The notes beneath the pieces were generated by a model. That model was given only the letters and a program-made list of their open reading frames with translations, was not told the DNA's origin and made no database searches. The translations under genes and the position numbers were made by a program. A DNA stretch of 64,000 nucleotides from Lacisediminihabitans profunda. GTDB lineage: Bacteria > Actinomycetota > Actinomycetes > Actinomycetales > Microbacteriaceae. Positions 19,993-55,792 of this stretch are shown in pieces; position 1 is the stretch's first letter, and every line of letters starts with the position of its first letter. The DNA is taken from the NCBI RefSeq assembly GCF_008040105.1, contig NZ_VRMG01000008.1, positions 186,001-250,000 on the forward strand, in the 5' to 3' direction.

Positions 19993-20075
19993 CCGAAAAT
20001 GCAGGAGATTCGCCGCCGAATCGCAGGAACAGCGCTCCAGGAAACGTTCCCGTACCGAAAGTCCTGGCTTTTCAG
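19993..20075. repeat. Palindromic repeat, family D, copy 1
   Basis: CCGAAAATGCAGGAGATTCG at the left end and, on the other strand of the right end, CCTGAAAAGCCAGGACTTTCGG-like sequence form an imperfect inverted repeat about 83 bp long. It lies between the convergent map and trmD genes. The ends match the copy in mutM and a solo end near 31912. Confidence 0.55.
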
Positions 20076-23490: not shown

Positions 23491-23585
23491 GCGCTTCTCC
23501 GGAGGTTTGTCCGCAATCCGCCATCTGGAACCCAAAAACTGGTGCTCAGGGCGCGATTCCGGAGAAACCTCCGGAGAAACGCGTG
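23491..23585. repeat. Palindromic repeat, family A, copy 1
   Basis: About 95 bp bounded by GCGCTTCTCCGGAGGTTTGT on the left and AACCTCCGGAGAAACGCG on the right, an inverted repeat of roughly 18 bp. The interior contains CCATCTGGAACCC, which copy 2 nearly repeats. It lies in the 435-bp gene-free gap between the DMT transporter start and the LLM pseudogene end. Confidence 0.75.
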
Positions 23586-23639: not shown

Positions 23640-23733
23640 GCGCTTCTCCGGAGGTTTGTCTACAAACCGCCTTCTGGAACCCAGCACCGGGACTCAGAGC
23701 CCGATTCTGGCGCAAACCTCCGGAGAAACGCGT
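23640..23733. repeat. Palindromic repeat, family A, copy 2
   Basis: About 94 bp with the same termini (GCGCTTCTCCGGAGGTTTGT and AAACCTCCGGAGAAACGCG) and a similar interior (CTTCTGGAACCCAG) as copy 1, which ends 55 bp away in the same orientation. A third copy is inside smc. Confidence 0.75.
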
Positions 23734-45862: not shown

Positions 45863-48800
45863 CTAGCCTGCCTGCTCCTGCTTCACCCGCTGGCCGACGA
45901 CCGCGCTGATGCCGTCGGCGCGCATCGAGACCCCGTAGAGGGCATCCGCGATCTCCATCGTGCGCTTCTGGTGCGTGATGATGATGAGCTGCGACGACTC
46001 GCGCAGGTCTTCGAAGATGGTGAGCAGACGACCGAGGTTGGCGTCGTCGAGCGCCGCCTCCACCTCGTCCATGATGTAGAACGGGCTGGGCCGCGCCTTG
46101 AAGATGGCGATGAGCAGCGCGACGGCGGCGAGGGAACGCTCCCCGCCGCTCAGCAGCGAGAGCCGCTCGATCTTCTTGCCGGCCGGCTTCACGGTGACCT
46201 CGATGCCGGTCGTGAGCAGGTTGTCCGGATCGGTGAGATGGATGCTGCCTGTGCCCCCCGGAAAGAGCACCGGGAAGACGGCGTTGAACGCGGTCTTCGT
46301 GTCTTCGAACGCGCTCCCGAAGATGTCCTGCATCTTCTCGTCGATCTCGTCGATGATCGTGAGGAGGTCTTTGCGCGTCGAGGTGAGGTCGGTGAGCTGC
46401 TCGGTGAGGAACTTGTGCCGCTGCTCCAGCGCGGCGAATTCCTCGAGCGCGAGCGGGTTGACCCGGCCCAGCTGCGCGAACTTGCGCTCCGCCCTCGCCA
46501 GCCGCGCCTCCTGCTCGGCCCGCACGAATCGCTTGCCCTCGGGAATCGCCCCCGCGGCATCCGACTCGCGCTTCTCCTCGAGTTCCTCGTCGCGCTCGCG
46601 TTTCTCCGGAGCATCCGCCAATTCCGTCTCGGATATGGCCATTTCGGCCCCATTTGCGCTCTCCGCGACCGAAACCTCCGGAGAAACGCGTGCGGGCAGA
46701 AGGTCGCCATCGAGCGGCACGAGCTGTTCGGGGCCGTACTCGGCCACGAGCACGTCCTCGACGAGGCCGAGCTCCTCGCCGGCGCGCTCGAGCAGCGTCG
46801 AGAGGTGCAGTTTCTTCTCGTAGACCTGCATCTCGAGGCCGTGCACGCTCTCGCTGATGGCGGTGAGCCGCTCCCGCAACGCGTTCTCGCTGCGACGCAG
46901 CTCGGCGAGTTCCTCGTTCTGCGCCGAGCGCTCGGCCTCGCGGGCGGCGAGCTCGAGCCGCGCCTGGGACACCGACCGGTCGACGGAGTCGAGCACCGCG
47001 GGGAGCGCCTCGAGCACCCGCTGGGCCGAGGCGACCTGGCGTCGGCGGATCACGGCGCGTCGGGCGGCCTCCTCGGCCTGAACCCGGTCCGCCTCCATCT
47101 GGCGCTTCAGCTGTTCGGCCCTCGCCTGCTGGGCGCGCACTCGCTCTCGCGCGGTCTCCACCTGCAGGCGCGCCTCGATCTCGTTCTCCCGCGCCGACTC
47201 GAGGTCGGCGAGCACGCCCTCGCGCGCGGCGACATCGAGGATGGGGCGGGGGCGTGACGACGCCGTCTCCAGTTCCTGGCGGGCCCGGTCGGCCTGGGCT
47301 GCGGCATCCGCCACCGCATCCGTCGCCAGGGCGAGCCCCTTTTCGAGCCGGTCGGCCTCCGCCTGGGCCGCCTCGACCTGCACGCGCACGCGGTTGAGCT
47401 TCTCGGTCTGGGCGGCGAGCTGCGAGTCGAACTGACGCAGGGCGGTGAGGGCGCGCGCCGACTGCTCCTTCGCCACCTGATGACGCCCCCGCTGTTCGGC
47501 GAGCGCGAACTTGGCGCGGTCGATGAGGGAGCTCACCTCCTCGAGCCGGTGCTTCGCCGCATCGCGGTCCGCAACGAGTTCGAGCCGCGAACGCTTGGCC
47601 CCCGAGCCGCCGCGGAGCACGTATTCGGACAGCACGTCGCCGGACTTCGTGATGATCGTGACGGCCGAGCCCGCGGCGAGACCGGTCCAGCCGGCGCGCG
47701 CCGTGGCGAGGTCGTCGGCGATCAGAATTCCGCTGAGCAGGTGCCGCACGCCGTCCGGCGCGGTGACGACGCTCTCGGCGCTGACGATGCCGTCGCCGAG
47801 GTCGAGGGCGCTCGCGGTCGGCGCCCCGGACTCCGCGATCACGATCTCGACCCGCCCATAGTCGTTGCTGCCGGAGTGCTCGATCGCGTCGAACGCCGAC
47901 GAGCGATCGTCGGCCAGAACGGCGTCGGCGAGCGAACCGAGGGCGGCAGCGATCGCAGCCTCGAACCCGGGCTGCACCTGCACGTGTTCGGCGACGAGTC
48001 CGCGGATGCCGGCGAGCCGCGCGGAGACGAGCGCGCTCGAGCCGTCCTTCTGGTCGAGGGCCGACGACAGCGCGCTCGTGCGGGCGGCGAGGGCGTCGCG
48101 TTCGCGTTCGTGGCCGTGAAGCTGTTCGCGCAGGCGCTCGATCTCGGCCTCGGCATCCAGAACCTCGGCCTGCGCGGTCTCGTAGGCGGCGTCGAGGTCG
48201 GTCTCGCCGGAGTCGGTGAGCGCCGCCTCGGCCTCCAACTCGACGAACGAGGCCTGGGACTTCTCCCGCCGGTCGCGGGCCGCGTCGAGCGCGTTCTGCT
48301 GGCGGAGCACCTCGCCGCGCACCGCGGCGAGACGGGACAGCGCGGTGTCGGCCTGGCCGCTGAGCTTGGACATCTCGAGGTCGTGCCGGGAGACGAGGGA
48401 GGACTGGTACGCGATCTGCTCGTCGAGCCCGTCGAGGTTCGCTCGGGCGACGGCGGTCGCGGCCTGGGCCTCCTGCCACGCGGCCTGCGTCTCGGTGACC
48501 GCGGTCAGGAGGCTCTCGATCTCGTCTTCGGCGTCGGCCACCATCTGGCGGGTGACGCCCTGGCCGGCATCCGGAGCGTCGGTCTGCTGCCCGAGCAGGG
48601 CCAGGCGCTGGTTGGCGAGCGTGTAGAGGCTGCGCAGCCGTTCCTGCACCGACTCGAGGCCGAAGGCGGTGCGGCGCGCGAGATCCACGGCATCGCCCTC
48701 CTGCGACTGCTCGATGCGGTGCTCGCGAAGCTTGTTCTGGTCGAGCTGTTCCTGCAGCACGATCCGCTCGGTCTTGCGTTCGCTCTCGCTGCGGGCCGAC

Positions 48801-49528
48801 GCGGTGATGGCGGCGCGGAGCGTGACGACCTCGTCGGCGAGCAGTCGCGCGCGGGCATCCCGCACGATCGACGCGATCGACTGGGCCTCCTTGGCGATCT
48901 CGGCCTGATGGCCGAGCGGCTTGAGCTGGCGGCGGATCTCCCCGGCGAGATCGCTCAACCGGGTGAGGTTGGCCTGCATCGCGTCGAGCTTGCGGATGGT
49001 CTTCTCTTTGCGACGACGATGCTTGAGGATGCCCGCGGCCTCTTCGATGAAGCCGCGGCGGTCCTCGGGGCTCGCGCGCAGCACGGCGTCGAGCTGGCCC
49101 TGGCCCACGATCACGTGCATCTCCCGGCCGAGGCCGGAGTCGCTCAGCAGCTCCTGCACATCGAGGAGGCGGCAGGTGTCTCCATTGATCGCGTACTCGC
49201 TGCCGCCGTTGCGGAACAGGGTGCGGCTGATCGTGACCTCGGCGTAGTCGATCGGCAGGGCGCCATCCGCGTTGTCGATCGTGAGGATCACCTCGGCCCG
49301 TCCGAGCGGGCCCTTGGTGGCCGTGCCGGCGAAGATGACGTCTTCCATCTTGCCGCCGCGGAGCGTCTTGGCGCCCTGCTCCCCCATGACCCAGGCGAGG
49401 GCGTCGACGACGTTGGACTTGCCGGAGCCGTTCGGTCCGACGACGCACGTCACGCCCTGCTCGAAGGCGAAGGTAGTCGGCTGGGCGAACGACTTGAACC
49501 CCTTGAGGGTAAGGCTCTTGAGATACAC
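45863..49528 (-). CDS. smc: Chromosome segregation ATPase SMC, with a repeat element in its coding sequence
   Basis: A 1221-residue SMC. The GTG 49528 start gives MYLKSLTLKGFKSFA; Walker A VVGPNGSGKSN is at 31-38. The first coiled coil is followed by the hinge region (AALGSLADAVLADDRSSAFD, then the glycine-rich VLRGGSGAKRSRLELV). The signature RLSLLSGGERSL is near 1126, followed by Walker B FYIMDEVEAALDDAN. Residues about 944-978 (ARVSPEVSVAESANGAEMAI and beyond) are encoded by a family A palindromic repeat and have no counterpart in ordinary SMC proteins, where GPEQLVP is followed closely by EGKRFVR. SMC organises and segregates chromosomes with ScpAB. Confidence 0.95.
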   Translation of the reverse strand: MYLKSLTLKGFKSFAQPTTFAFEQGVTCVVGPNGSGKSNVVDALAWVMGEQGAKTLRGGKMEDVIFAGTATKGPLGRAEVILTIDNADGALPIDYAEVTISRTLFRNGGSEYAINGDTCRLLDVQELLSDSGLGREMHVIVGQGQLDAVLRASPEDRRGFIEEAAGILKHRRRKEKTIRKLDAMQANLTRLSDLAGEIRRQLKPLGHQAEIAKEAQSIASIVRDARARLLADEVVTLRAAITASARSESERKTERIVLQEQLDQNKLREHRIEQSQEGDAVDLARRTAFGLESVQERLRSLYTLANQRLALLGQQTDAPDAGQGVTRQMVADAEDEIESLLTAVTETQAAWQEAQAATAVARANLDGLDEQIAYQSSLVSRHDLEMSKLSGQADTALSRLAAVRGEVLRQQNALDAARDRREKSQASFVELEAEAALTDSGETDLDAAYETAQAEVLDAEAEIERLREQLHGHERERDALAARTSALSSALDQKDGSSALVSARLAGIRGLVAEHVQVQPGFEAAIAAALGSLADAVLADDRSSAFDAIEHSGSNDYGRVEIVIAESGAPTASALDLGDGIVSAESVVTAPDGVRHLLSGILIADDLATARAGWTGLAAGSAVTIITKSGDVLSEYVLRGGSGAKRSRLELVADRDAAKHRLEEVSSLIDRAKFALAEQRGRHQVAKEQSARALTALRQFDSQLAAQTEKLNRVRVQVEAAQAEADRLEKGLALATDAVADAAAQADRARQELETASSRPRPILDVAAREGVLADLESARENEIEARLQVETARERVRAQQARAEQLKRQMEADRVQAEEAARRAVIRRRQVASAQRVLEALPAVLDSVDRSVSQARLELAAREAERSAQNEELAELRRSENALRERLTAISESVHGLEMQVYEKKLHLSTLLERAGEELGLVEDVLVAEYGPEQLVPLDGDLLPARVSPEVSVAESANGAEMAISETELADAPEKRERDEELEEKRESDAAGAIPEGKRFVRAEQEARLARAERKFAQLGRVNPLALEEFAALEQRHKFLTEQLTDLTSTRKDLLTIIDEIDEKMQDIFGSAFEDTKTAFNAVFPVLFPGGTGSIHLTDPDNLLTTGIEVTVKPAGKKIERLSLLSGGERSLAAVALLIAIFKARPSPFYIMDEVEAALDDANLGRLLTIFEDLRESSQLIIITHQKRTMEIADALYGVSMRADGISAVVGQRVKQEQAG
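46595..46695. repeat. Palindromic repeat, family A, copy 3, inside smc
   Basis: About 100 bp with ends CGCGTTTCTCCGGAG and CTCCGGAGAAACGCG. The right end shares 22 or more bases (GAAACCTCCGGAGAAACGCG and the following TGC) with the intergenic copy at 23491-23585. It reads through in frame in smc, adding about 34 residues. Confidence 0.75.
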
Positions 49529-52735: not shown

Positions 52736-52905
<170 letters not shown>

Positions 52906-53006
52906 CGTGCATAACTCCTGCAATTCACCTGGCGTAGCCGACCAACACCCCGAATACGCGGGAGCGTCACGACCCTGCCCGCCGAACTGCAGGAGTTATG
53001 CACGCC
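52906..53006. repeat. Palindromic repeat, family C, copy 2
   Basis: CGTGCATAACTCCTGCAATTC-type left end and CTGCAGGAGTTATGCACGC right end form a perfect 14-bp inverted terminus around a 60-bp interior. The ends match copy 1 upstream of smc. Confidence 0.75.
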
Positions 53007-53102: not shown

Positions 53103-54161
53103 TCAGCGCAGCCGCTGGCAGAAGGCGCAGAGATGCGAATTGCGGTTCATGAACGACTCGCGCACCATCAGCCGTCCGCAGCGCGGGCACTCCTCGCCCT
53201 GCCGCCCGTACGCGTTCAGCGAGTGCGAGAAGTAGCCGGATGCCCCGTTCACGTTCACGTACTGGGCGTCGAAGCTCGTGCCGCCCTCCGCGAGCGCCTT
53301 GCCGAGCACGAGCCGCACCTCGGCGAGGAGCGAGCGTGCGCGGGCGCGGCTCAGGCTGGCCGTCGGCTGGTCGTAGTGGATGCGGGCCGCCCAGAGCGAC
53401 TCGTCCGCGTAGATGTTGCCGACGCCGCTGATGAGGGTCTGGTCGAGCAGGGCGCGCTTGATGCCGGTCTTGCGTTTCGCGAGGGCCGTGAAGAACTGCG
53501 CGTCGGAGAATGCCGGGTCGAGCGGATCACGGGCGATATGGGCGACCTGGCTGGGCACCAGAGCCGCCTCGCCGCCGAACCCGCCCGGGCGCCCGTCCGG
53601 CGTGCGCACGAGGTCGTCGATTGCCATCGATCCGAAGATCCGCTGGTCCACGAAGTCGACGCGCAACGAACCGAGTCGGTCCTGGTCCAGATCCAGCCTG
53701 ATTCGCAGGAGCGCGTCATCCGGTTGCCCGACATCGCGCAGAAGCACCTGCCCGCTCATGCCGAGGTGCACCACGAGAGCCTCTGCCCCCGCCGAAAACG
53801 CAGGAGATTCTTCGTCGACGGCGGCGTATGCCGGCTGGGGCGCCGTTTCGAGGCGAATCTCCTGCGTTTTCAGAGAGCCGGGAGCCGCGGGACCCGCGAG
53901 AGAGCCGGGAGCCGCGGGAGAGCCGGGAGCCGCGGGAGACGCGGCAGCGGATGCGGCGGCCAGCGGCAGCCAGAGGAACTTGCCGCGGCGAACCGCCCCG
54001 GTGATAGTGCGTCCGGTGAGCCGGTCGATGAAGTCCTCGCTCGGGCCGTTGTGGCGGCGAAGCGAGCGCTCATCGAAGACGGTCACGGCGCGAACTGTCG
54101 CCCCGGTGACCGCCGGCTCGAGGCCAGCCCGAACCACCTCTACCTCGGGAAGCTCCGGCAC
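53103..54161 (-). CDS. mutM: Formamidopyrimidine-DNA glycosylase with an internal repeat-encoded insert
   Basis: A 352-residue Fpg/MutM, longer than the usual 270-300. It removes 8-oxoguanine. GTG 54161 gives PELPEVEVVRAGLEP (catalytic Pro and Glu); the beta-sandwich lysine is in RRGKFLWLPL. The H2TH region is DQTLISGVGNIYADE and the zinc finger is CPRCGR with HLCAFCQR. Residues about 72-123 are extra: AAPGS-type repeats followed by LKTQEIRLE, encoded by an 18-bp tandem repeat and a family D palindrome. Family members go directly from LWLPL to ALVVHLGMSGQ. It is two bases downstream of rnc. Confidence 0.94.
   Translation of the reverse strand: MPELPEVEVVRAGLEPAVTGATVRAVTVFDERSLRRHNGPSEDFIDRLTGRTITGAVRRGKFLWLPLAAASAAASPAAPGSPAAPGSLAGPAAPGSLKTQEIRLETAPQPAYAAVDEESPAFSAGAEALVVHLGMSGQVLLRDVGQPDDALLRIRLDLDQDRLGSLRVDFVDQRIFGSMAIDDLVRTPDGRPGGFGGEAALVPSQVAHIARDPLDPAFSDAQFFTALAKRKTGIKRALLDQTLISGVGNIYADESLWAARIHYDQPTASLSRARARSLLAEVRLVLGKALAEGGTSFDAQYVNVNGASGYFSHSLNAYGRQGEECPRCGRLMVRESFMNRNSHLCAFCQRLR
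53791..53873. repeat. Palindromic repeat, family D, copy 2, inside mutM
   Basis: GCCGAAAACGCAGGAGATTC (53791-53810) and GAATCTCCTGCGTTTTCAG (53855-53873) form an inverted repeat of about 18 bp. It is in frame in mutM. The ends match those after map (19993) and near 31912. Confidence 0.75.
53873..53940. repeat. 18-bp tandem repeat inside mutM
   Basis: Three copies of GAGAGCCGGGAGCCGCGG, one interrupted by a few bases, directly abut the family D element and encode PAAPGS-type repeats in MutM. Confidence 0.7.
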
Positions 54162-55704: not shown

Positions 55705-55792
55705 CCTTCCGAAATCCATGCATTCCTGCCCGACTCGCCGCTTGCCGACGCATCCGGGCGGCGTGTCGCCGGAATTGCATGGATTTCGGAAG
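55705..55792. repeat. Palindromic repeat, family E
   Basis: CTTCCGAAATCCATGCATTC and, at the right end, GGAATTGCATGGATTTCGGAAG form a nearly perfect inverted repeat of about 20 bp around a 45-bp interior. A purine-rich GAAGCA/GAAGCG run follows to about 55830. It fills the gap between yceD and the aminotransferase stop. Only one copy is in the window. Confidence 0.7.

Follow-up and report, generated by a model that had tools for sequence, protein, structure and literature searches.

Short palindromic elements with conserved ends, hypervariable cores and lengths in steps of one helical turn, one of them in frame in smc of a Microbacteriaceae genome

The gene encoding the chromosome segregation protein SMC lies within the window, the stretch of 64,000 nucleotides that was analysed, which is part of a 4.02-Mb Microbacteriaceae draft genome in 171 contigs (G000 among our G-numbered genomes). 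The open frame of smc extends to 49600, and its likely start, as judged from the sequence, is at 49528 (VYLKSLTLKGF). The nearest named matches are SMC proteins of Microbacteriaceae MAGs, Herbiconiux, Rhodoglobus, Leifsonia and Salinibacterium. A palindromic element of 90 bp, equal to 30 codons, is inserted in frame in this gene; its inverted-repeat match can be traced outward to 46597-46690, and the core lies between the arms. Two further copies are located between genes (Table 1), bearing out the preliminary description of a palindromic repeat with two intergenic copies and one in smc. We refer to these elements as family A.

Table 1. Position and structure of smc and of the palindromic elements in the window
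Feature	Position	Strand	Details
smc, chromosome segregation protein	45863..49528	-	TIGR02168 SMC_prok_B, 850.5 bits (curated cut-off 567)
Family A palindromic element in smc	46599..46688	.	17-bp arms 46599-46615 and 46672-46688; spacing class 74
Family A, intergenic copy 1	23492..23581	.	arms 23492-23508 and 23565-23581; spacing 74
Family A, intergenic copy 2	23641..23730	.	arms 23641-23657 and 23714-23730; spacing 74
Family B element	53796..53869	.	arms AAACGCAGGAGAT / ATCTCCTGCGTTT; 74 bp; design as family A, other ends
Family C element	52905..53005	.	18-bp arms GCGTGCATAACTCCTGCA; 101 bp
Candidate family D element	55706..55792	.	17-bp arms CTTCCGAAATCCATGCA; 87 bp; phased core

In the window, six matches to the family A arm were found at up to three mismatches as compared to 0.12 expected, a number reached in none of 100 shuffles. 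The genome-wide search for copies that the preliminary description had proposed returned 88 arm matches at up to one mismatch (47 forward, 41 reverse), and the control, the arm pattern read backwards, had no match in the whole genome. Arms were paired at 55-110 bp in the window and in 29 stretches around arm matches; the 55 first-pass pairs were corrected by hand to 53 (four mis-pairs removed, one re-paired, two added). These 53 paired copies in one genome are a lower bound, as degenerate copies are missed, and correspond to 40 non-redundant copies when cores are collapsed at 70% identity. According to a home-made gene caller based on codon scores, 45 of the 53 copies are intergenic (26 between co-directional, 12 between convergent and seven between divergent genes), and eight overlap predicted genes, some just at the gene ends. 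Tandem arrays occur as well. At L035:2358-2992, four tandem copies follow each other with a period of about 184 bp including flanking DNA, and similar arrays are present in L046, L039 and L033; at L042:4080-4140, the 17-bp right arm is repeated four times head-to-tail, and L038 has two such arms. Paired family A ends were present in 5 of 398 Microbacteriaceae genomes and the exact arm in 4 of 13 genomes of the genus, the copy number varying widely among congeners and being zero in most. No match to the paired patterns of family A, or of family B described below, was obtained in viral_contigs, and a link to phages was rejected on this basis.

In family A, the ends alone are conserved, over about 17-22 bp, and the cores are hypervariable. 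Outward, the arms continue as CNCGCG. Among 17 representatives of the class with an end spacing of 74 bp, the ungapped core identity was 0.391 compared to 0.309 in shuffles (reached by 0 of 200), which points to hardly more than a weak shared consensus. The right end (CTCCGGAGAAACGCGTG and its neighbours) is common to all three window copies. The smc copy has the ends and the length of the two intergenic copies, but the resemblance of its core to theirs just reaches the level of this weak family consensus. The core of intergenic copy 2 is related to that of its tandem neighbour, copy 1.

The end spacings of the 40 non-redundant copies were 64 (three copies), 65, 73, 74 (19 copies), 75 (six), 76 (two), 84, 85, 86 (five) and 96 bp. 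They form classes about one helical turn apart, at 64-65, 73-76, 84-86 and 96 bp. A Rayleigh test at 10.5 bp yielded R = 0.912 and p = 3e-15, a value that overstates the case because copies of the same class may share ancestry; the length argument therefore rests on the empty ranges between the classes. In other genomes (G009, G010, G012, G021 and G118), 21 pairs, counted without two overlapping mis-pairs of 107 and 109, had spacings of 64-66, 73-76, 85 and 95. The A/T content of family A cores displayed a spectral peak at 10.5-10.75 bp (z of about 24 against base shuffles) and autocorrelation peaks near lags 10-11 and 20-21, and a weaker one near 31. Over whole elements, the A/T period was 10.3-10.4 in each of the four length classes; the last class has one copy. 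The mean power at 10.5 bp was 1.007 for family A compared to 0.218 for 462 intergenic and 0.184 for 1542 genic segments of the same loci, and that of the smc copy, 1.39, was above all 1542 genic control segments. In other genomes, 20 copies were paired correctly and scored, three mis-pairs and one unscored G118 pair being excluded from this number. Of the 20, 14 reached the 95th percentile of 3342 control segments, namely 13 of 16 copies within the genus (orthologues in G010 and G012 counted separately) and 1 of 4 outside it, where the phasing is weak.

The design of family A recurs in the window with other ends. In addition to the family B element listed in Table 1, a degenerate one was seen at 19997-20071. 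Family B comprises 114 paired copies across 9 of the 13 genus genomes and occurs in 4 of 169 Microbacteriaceae genomes, that is, in 3 of 85 genera. Of the 114 copies, 90 were analysed and yielded 66 non-redundant cores, all of them from elements of 74-76 bp, in a search that allowed 68-98 bp. The A/T period of family B is 10.0-10.25 (z = 42; z = 34 at 10.5), and the style of the cores is species-specific, as seen in G004, G006 and G010. Contigs L143 and L147 of G012 stop inside elements of family B. This would be expected if assemblies break at palindromes, in which case copy counts in drafts would be too low. Family C has five further copies in G000 and G002; on the same arms, the lengths are 81 (four times) and 82 elsewhere as compared to 93 in the window, i.e. 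one turn longer. Candidate family D is represented by a single copy within the stretches examined.

According to the preliminary description, it is as if the element were shaped so that it can be translated. Of the six frames, the 40 family A copies had on average 4.90 open, compared to 3.74 in base shuffles and 4.63 in dinucleotide-preserving shuffles (sd 0.13, z = 2.1). Family B openness was mildly higher than that of dinucleotide shuffles in G000, G004 and G006 (z = 2.3 to 3.4) and lower in G010 (z = -5.2). Being close to dinucleotide shuffles, the openness argues at most weakly for such shaping; it accompanies a scarcity of TA steps and a high GC content, and translatability is mostly a matter of composition. 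The apparent shaping looks instead like DNA geometry, consisting of quantised length and helically phased A/T tracts.

Among 17 pairs of family A copies in G000 with cores at least 80% alike, six have both flanks unrelated, and four of these six dispersed pairs lie within about 1 kb of each other. For family B, cores at least 80% alike stood between unrelated flanks in 4 of 5 pairs in G004 and in 7 of 7 pairs in G010. Near-identical cores between unrelated flanks make family A look mobile, and the view of a mobile-looking, dispersed repeat placed in frame in smc thus stands. A clear target duplication was found in neither family A nor family B; the best direct-repeat signal of family A was 0.78 versus 0.72 over 3 bp (z = 4.0, the best of many offsets), and that of family B had z = 2.3. 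Insertion-empty sites in relatives, which the preliminary description had proposed as a check, did not turn up in clean form among 15 G010 loci sought in G012 by their flanks. Eight of these loci were located: five gave element sequence, which in one case was truncated where the contig ends, and the other three consisted of just flank, a contig ending before the site, and unrelated sequence without the element. No autonomous parent, in the form of family A arm pairs around a gene, was seen in the stretches around arm matches. Two exact arms 1.4 kb apart in G012 were considered as a parent element and rejected, as they belong to two separate elements.

Identity between G010 and G012 is about 92-97% at shared loci. 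At the five loci found by flank, substitutions between them amounted to 3 in 133 positions of the ends, 22 in 246 of the cores and 139 in 1923 of the flanks, the ends having changed less than the cores (p = 0.015) and the flanks (p = 0.031). For this end conservation we used flank-found loci, since family B loci chosen by exact arms are biased by requiring the arms in both genomes. Family A loci chosen by exact arms had ends (7/140) no more conserved than cores (16/281). In 18 aligned elements, indel events numbered 2 in 513 bp of ends, 4 in 885 bp of cores and 105 in 6636 bp of flanks, and retention of phase in place between the two genomes was not significant (14 cores, p = 0.15). We read the G010/G012 pattern as a constraint that acts mainly during movement of the element.

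On balance, we favour as moderately probable that the elements are miniature non-autonomous mobile elements whose ends are synapsed via a tight double-stranded loop, and we read family A as a MITE/REPIN-like element with DNA shape selected. Most probably, a transposase acting in trans would join the two ends, inverted and conserved over about 17-22 bp, through a double-stranded loop of about six to nine turns. Such a loop would require that the two ends be oriented alike and that the DNA be easy to bend. The core would be free to change in sequence and would have to hold a length near whole helical turns, with its A/T tracts aligned along a single helical face. Because synapsis would proceed through a very short loop, DNA shape, including the phasing, would be what is selected, and transposition would place copies mostly between genes.

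The closest bacterial anatomy is that of REPINs, which are described as two invariant inverted 16-mers, the first residues of which are 71 bp apart in the GI class, around a variable spacer of set length, mostly extragenic and in tandem clusters, in Pseudomonas and others (PMC3116915). By that description, the elements reported here are alike in their inverted conserved ends, set spacing, variable core, mostly extragenic position, clusters and non-autonomous nature. This very close anatomy would suit an inverted-end pair that moves as a single-stranded hairpin via a RAYT-like or other single-strand transposase, with the core length mattering for the hairpin. In line with a hairpin, family B cores pair with their mirror positions above chance (e.g. 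in G006, 47/64 for A/T-A/T and 113/157 for G/C-G/C). In family A, however, mirror pairing is at chance for A/T (86/170) and weak for G/C (357/607), its cores apparently not being selected for pairing, and a hairpin does not demand 10.5-bp phasing. The RAYT profile Y1_Tnp (PF01797), the one transposase family covered by the search, matched none of the 13 genus genomes, some of which are just 64-92% complete, as compared to 5 of 14 controls. The several classes one turn apart and the phased A/T tracts of family A likewise differ from REPINs as these are described. Where REP ends are reported to carry a GTAG or CGTC tag (PMC3733652), inspection of the outer ends of the family A and B consensus arms revealed neither. 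We consider movement as a single-stranded hairpin unlikely.

Quite unlikely, in our view, is that the ends bind a chromosomal protein (a nucleoid protein, gyrase or a repressor) that wraps or loops DNA, and that copies are kept for the cell. Helical spacing and phased A/T would fit a wrapped complex, and the smaller change of ends than of cores and flanks between G010 and G012 points the same way, but this protection is slight and comes from five loci. A site serving the host also sits poorly with copy numbers that differ so widely among congeners, with dispersal between unrelated flanks and entry into smc, and with several unrelated end sequences sharing one design. That the transcript folds as a long hairpin ending or stabilising mRNAs is very improbable: as RNA, each of the 55 first-pass pairs forms a strong hairpin closed, or almost closed, by the arms, and many copies lie just downstream of genes, but no Rfam match was found within the window, seven of 45 intergenic copies are between divergent genes, and the 10.5-bp phasing and the kept arms with weakly paired family A cores would be left unexplained.

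Returning to mobile elements synapsed through a double-stranded loop, we compared them with other known systems as far as the published accounts describe these. They share with prokaryotic MITEs the terminal inverted repeats, small size, lack of coding capacity and many copies (PMC10969869), and depart from classical MITEs in that neither a parent insertion sequence nor a clear duplication of the target was found, in their quantised length, and in lacking the usual core homology. Rickettsia palindromic elements, of about 150 bp and encoding a conserved peptide, likewise form several palindromic families and enter genes of known function in frame (PMC10969869); by comparison, family A copies are mostly intergenic, and their hypervariable cores differ between copies and encode no conserved peptide. 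The lengths of Paramecium IESs follow the helical repeat, which has been read as a DNA loop (PMC3464196, PMC3408717). The periodicity of length classes in family A is like that of IESs, though copies of one class may share ancestry, and unique-looking cores and entry into coding DNA are further likenesses. Unlike our elements, IESs are eukaryotic, are excised in development by a domesticated transposase and have TA boundaries (PMC3464196, PMC3408717); such boundaries were not seen in our elements. By analogy, they are the documented parallel for the proposed short-loop synapsis. For bacterial cut-and-paste transposons, a minimum of 64-70 bp is given (PMC3464196), and the shortest family A class is 64.

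More tentatively, and with some doubt, the families may represent bacterial mobile elements in which DNA shape, not sequence, is the inherited payload, such that any core of whole turns with phased bends would serve. Movement would then involve either a tiny loop of duplex DNA or excision as a minicircle of about 75-120 bp, by a design common to several unrelated end families, and such elements would escape repeat finders because their cores cannot be aligned. They would constitute a natural helical-twist experiment in bacteria: much as with the lengths of IESs in Paramecium, the geometry of a synaptic complex that has never been isolated could be read from the lengths and A/T phase of the elements. 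REPINs and further short palindromic repeats would also be worth examining for a 10.5-bp phasing. Literature searches outside subscription journals returned no account of these elements among the papers listed; the arm strings appeared just in nine papers on unrelated subjects, in each case as the family B string.

The copy in smc occupies a linker of 76 residues. The smc genes of the 12 further genomes searched in the genus lacked family A, which was likewise not seen in the 76 linkers parsed from 80 named loci, which were kept from 587 relatives. Conservation of the inserted residues in SMC of other genera, which had been named as speaking against an insertion, was thus not found. A conserved SMC segment in place of an insert was rejected, as the linker is unalignable in length and sequence. 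An AlphaFold2 model (321 residues, 35 sequences; mean pLDDT 78, pTM 0.37) predicted disorder for the residues encoded by the element (122-152), with pLDDT below 50 at 119-152, although an insert without homologues scores low anyway. That SMC tolerates the insert is better accounted for by its location, since this linker varies and disorder is predicted for it; the copy would have survived because of this linker together with a length that keeps the frame.

Linkers of eight of the 12 other genus genomes have 29-53 residues and contain no inverted repeat of at least 11. Three of the remaining four (G004, G006 and G011) carry a palindrome with the family B ends CCGAAAACGCAGGAGAT in frame at the linker, and G009 carries another inverted repeat. 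By inspection, the SMC copies of G004 and G006 match the core style of their own species, which suggests separate entries. Four of the 76 named linkers contained an inverted repeat of 11 or longer. One is the G009 record and another that of Rhodoglobus sp. RYN_77, with an arm of 15 and a span of 87; in the other two, with arm 11 and span 139-149, the repeat may be due to chance. In related species, one and the same linker of a core protein of the chromosome thus contains palindromes of several end families, and such cases let the effect of an insert on SMC and the rate of entry be measured. The RYN_85 linker contains, by inspection, a degenerate relative of the RYN_77-type repeat, and in the SMC linker of G009 (L062 / L211) a four-fold DLSGLSSAE-type repeat adjoins the GGTTTCGATACGCGC palindrome.
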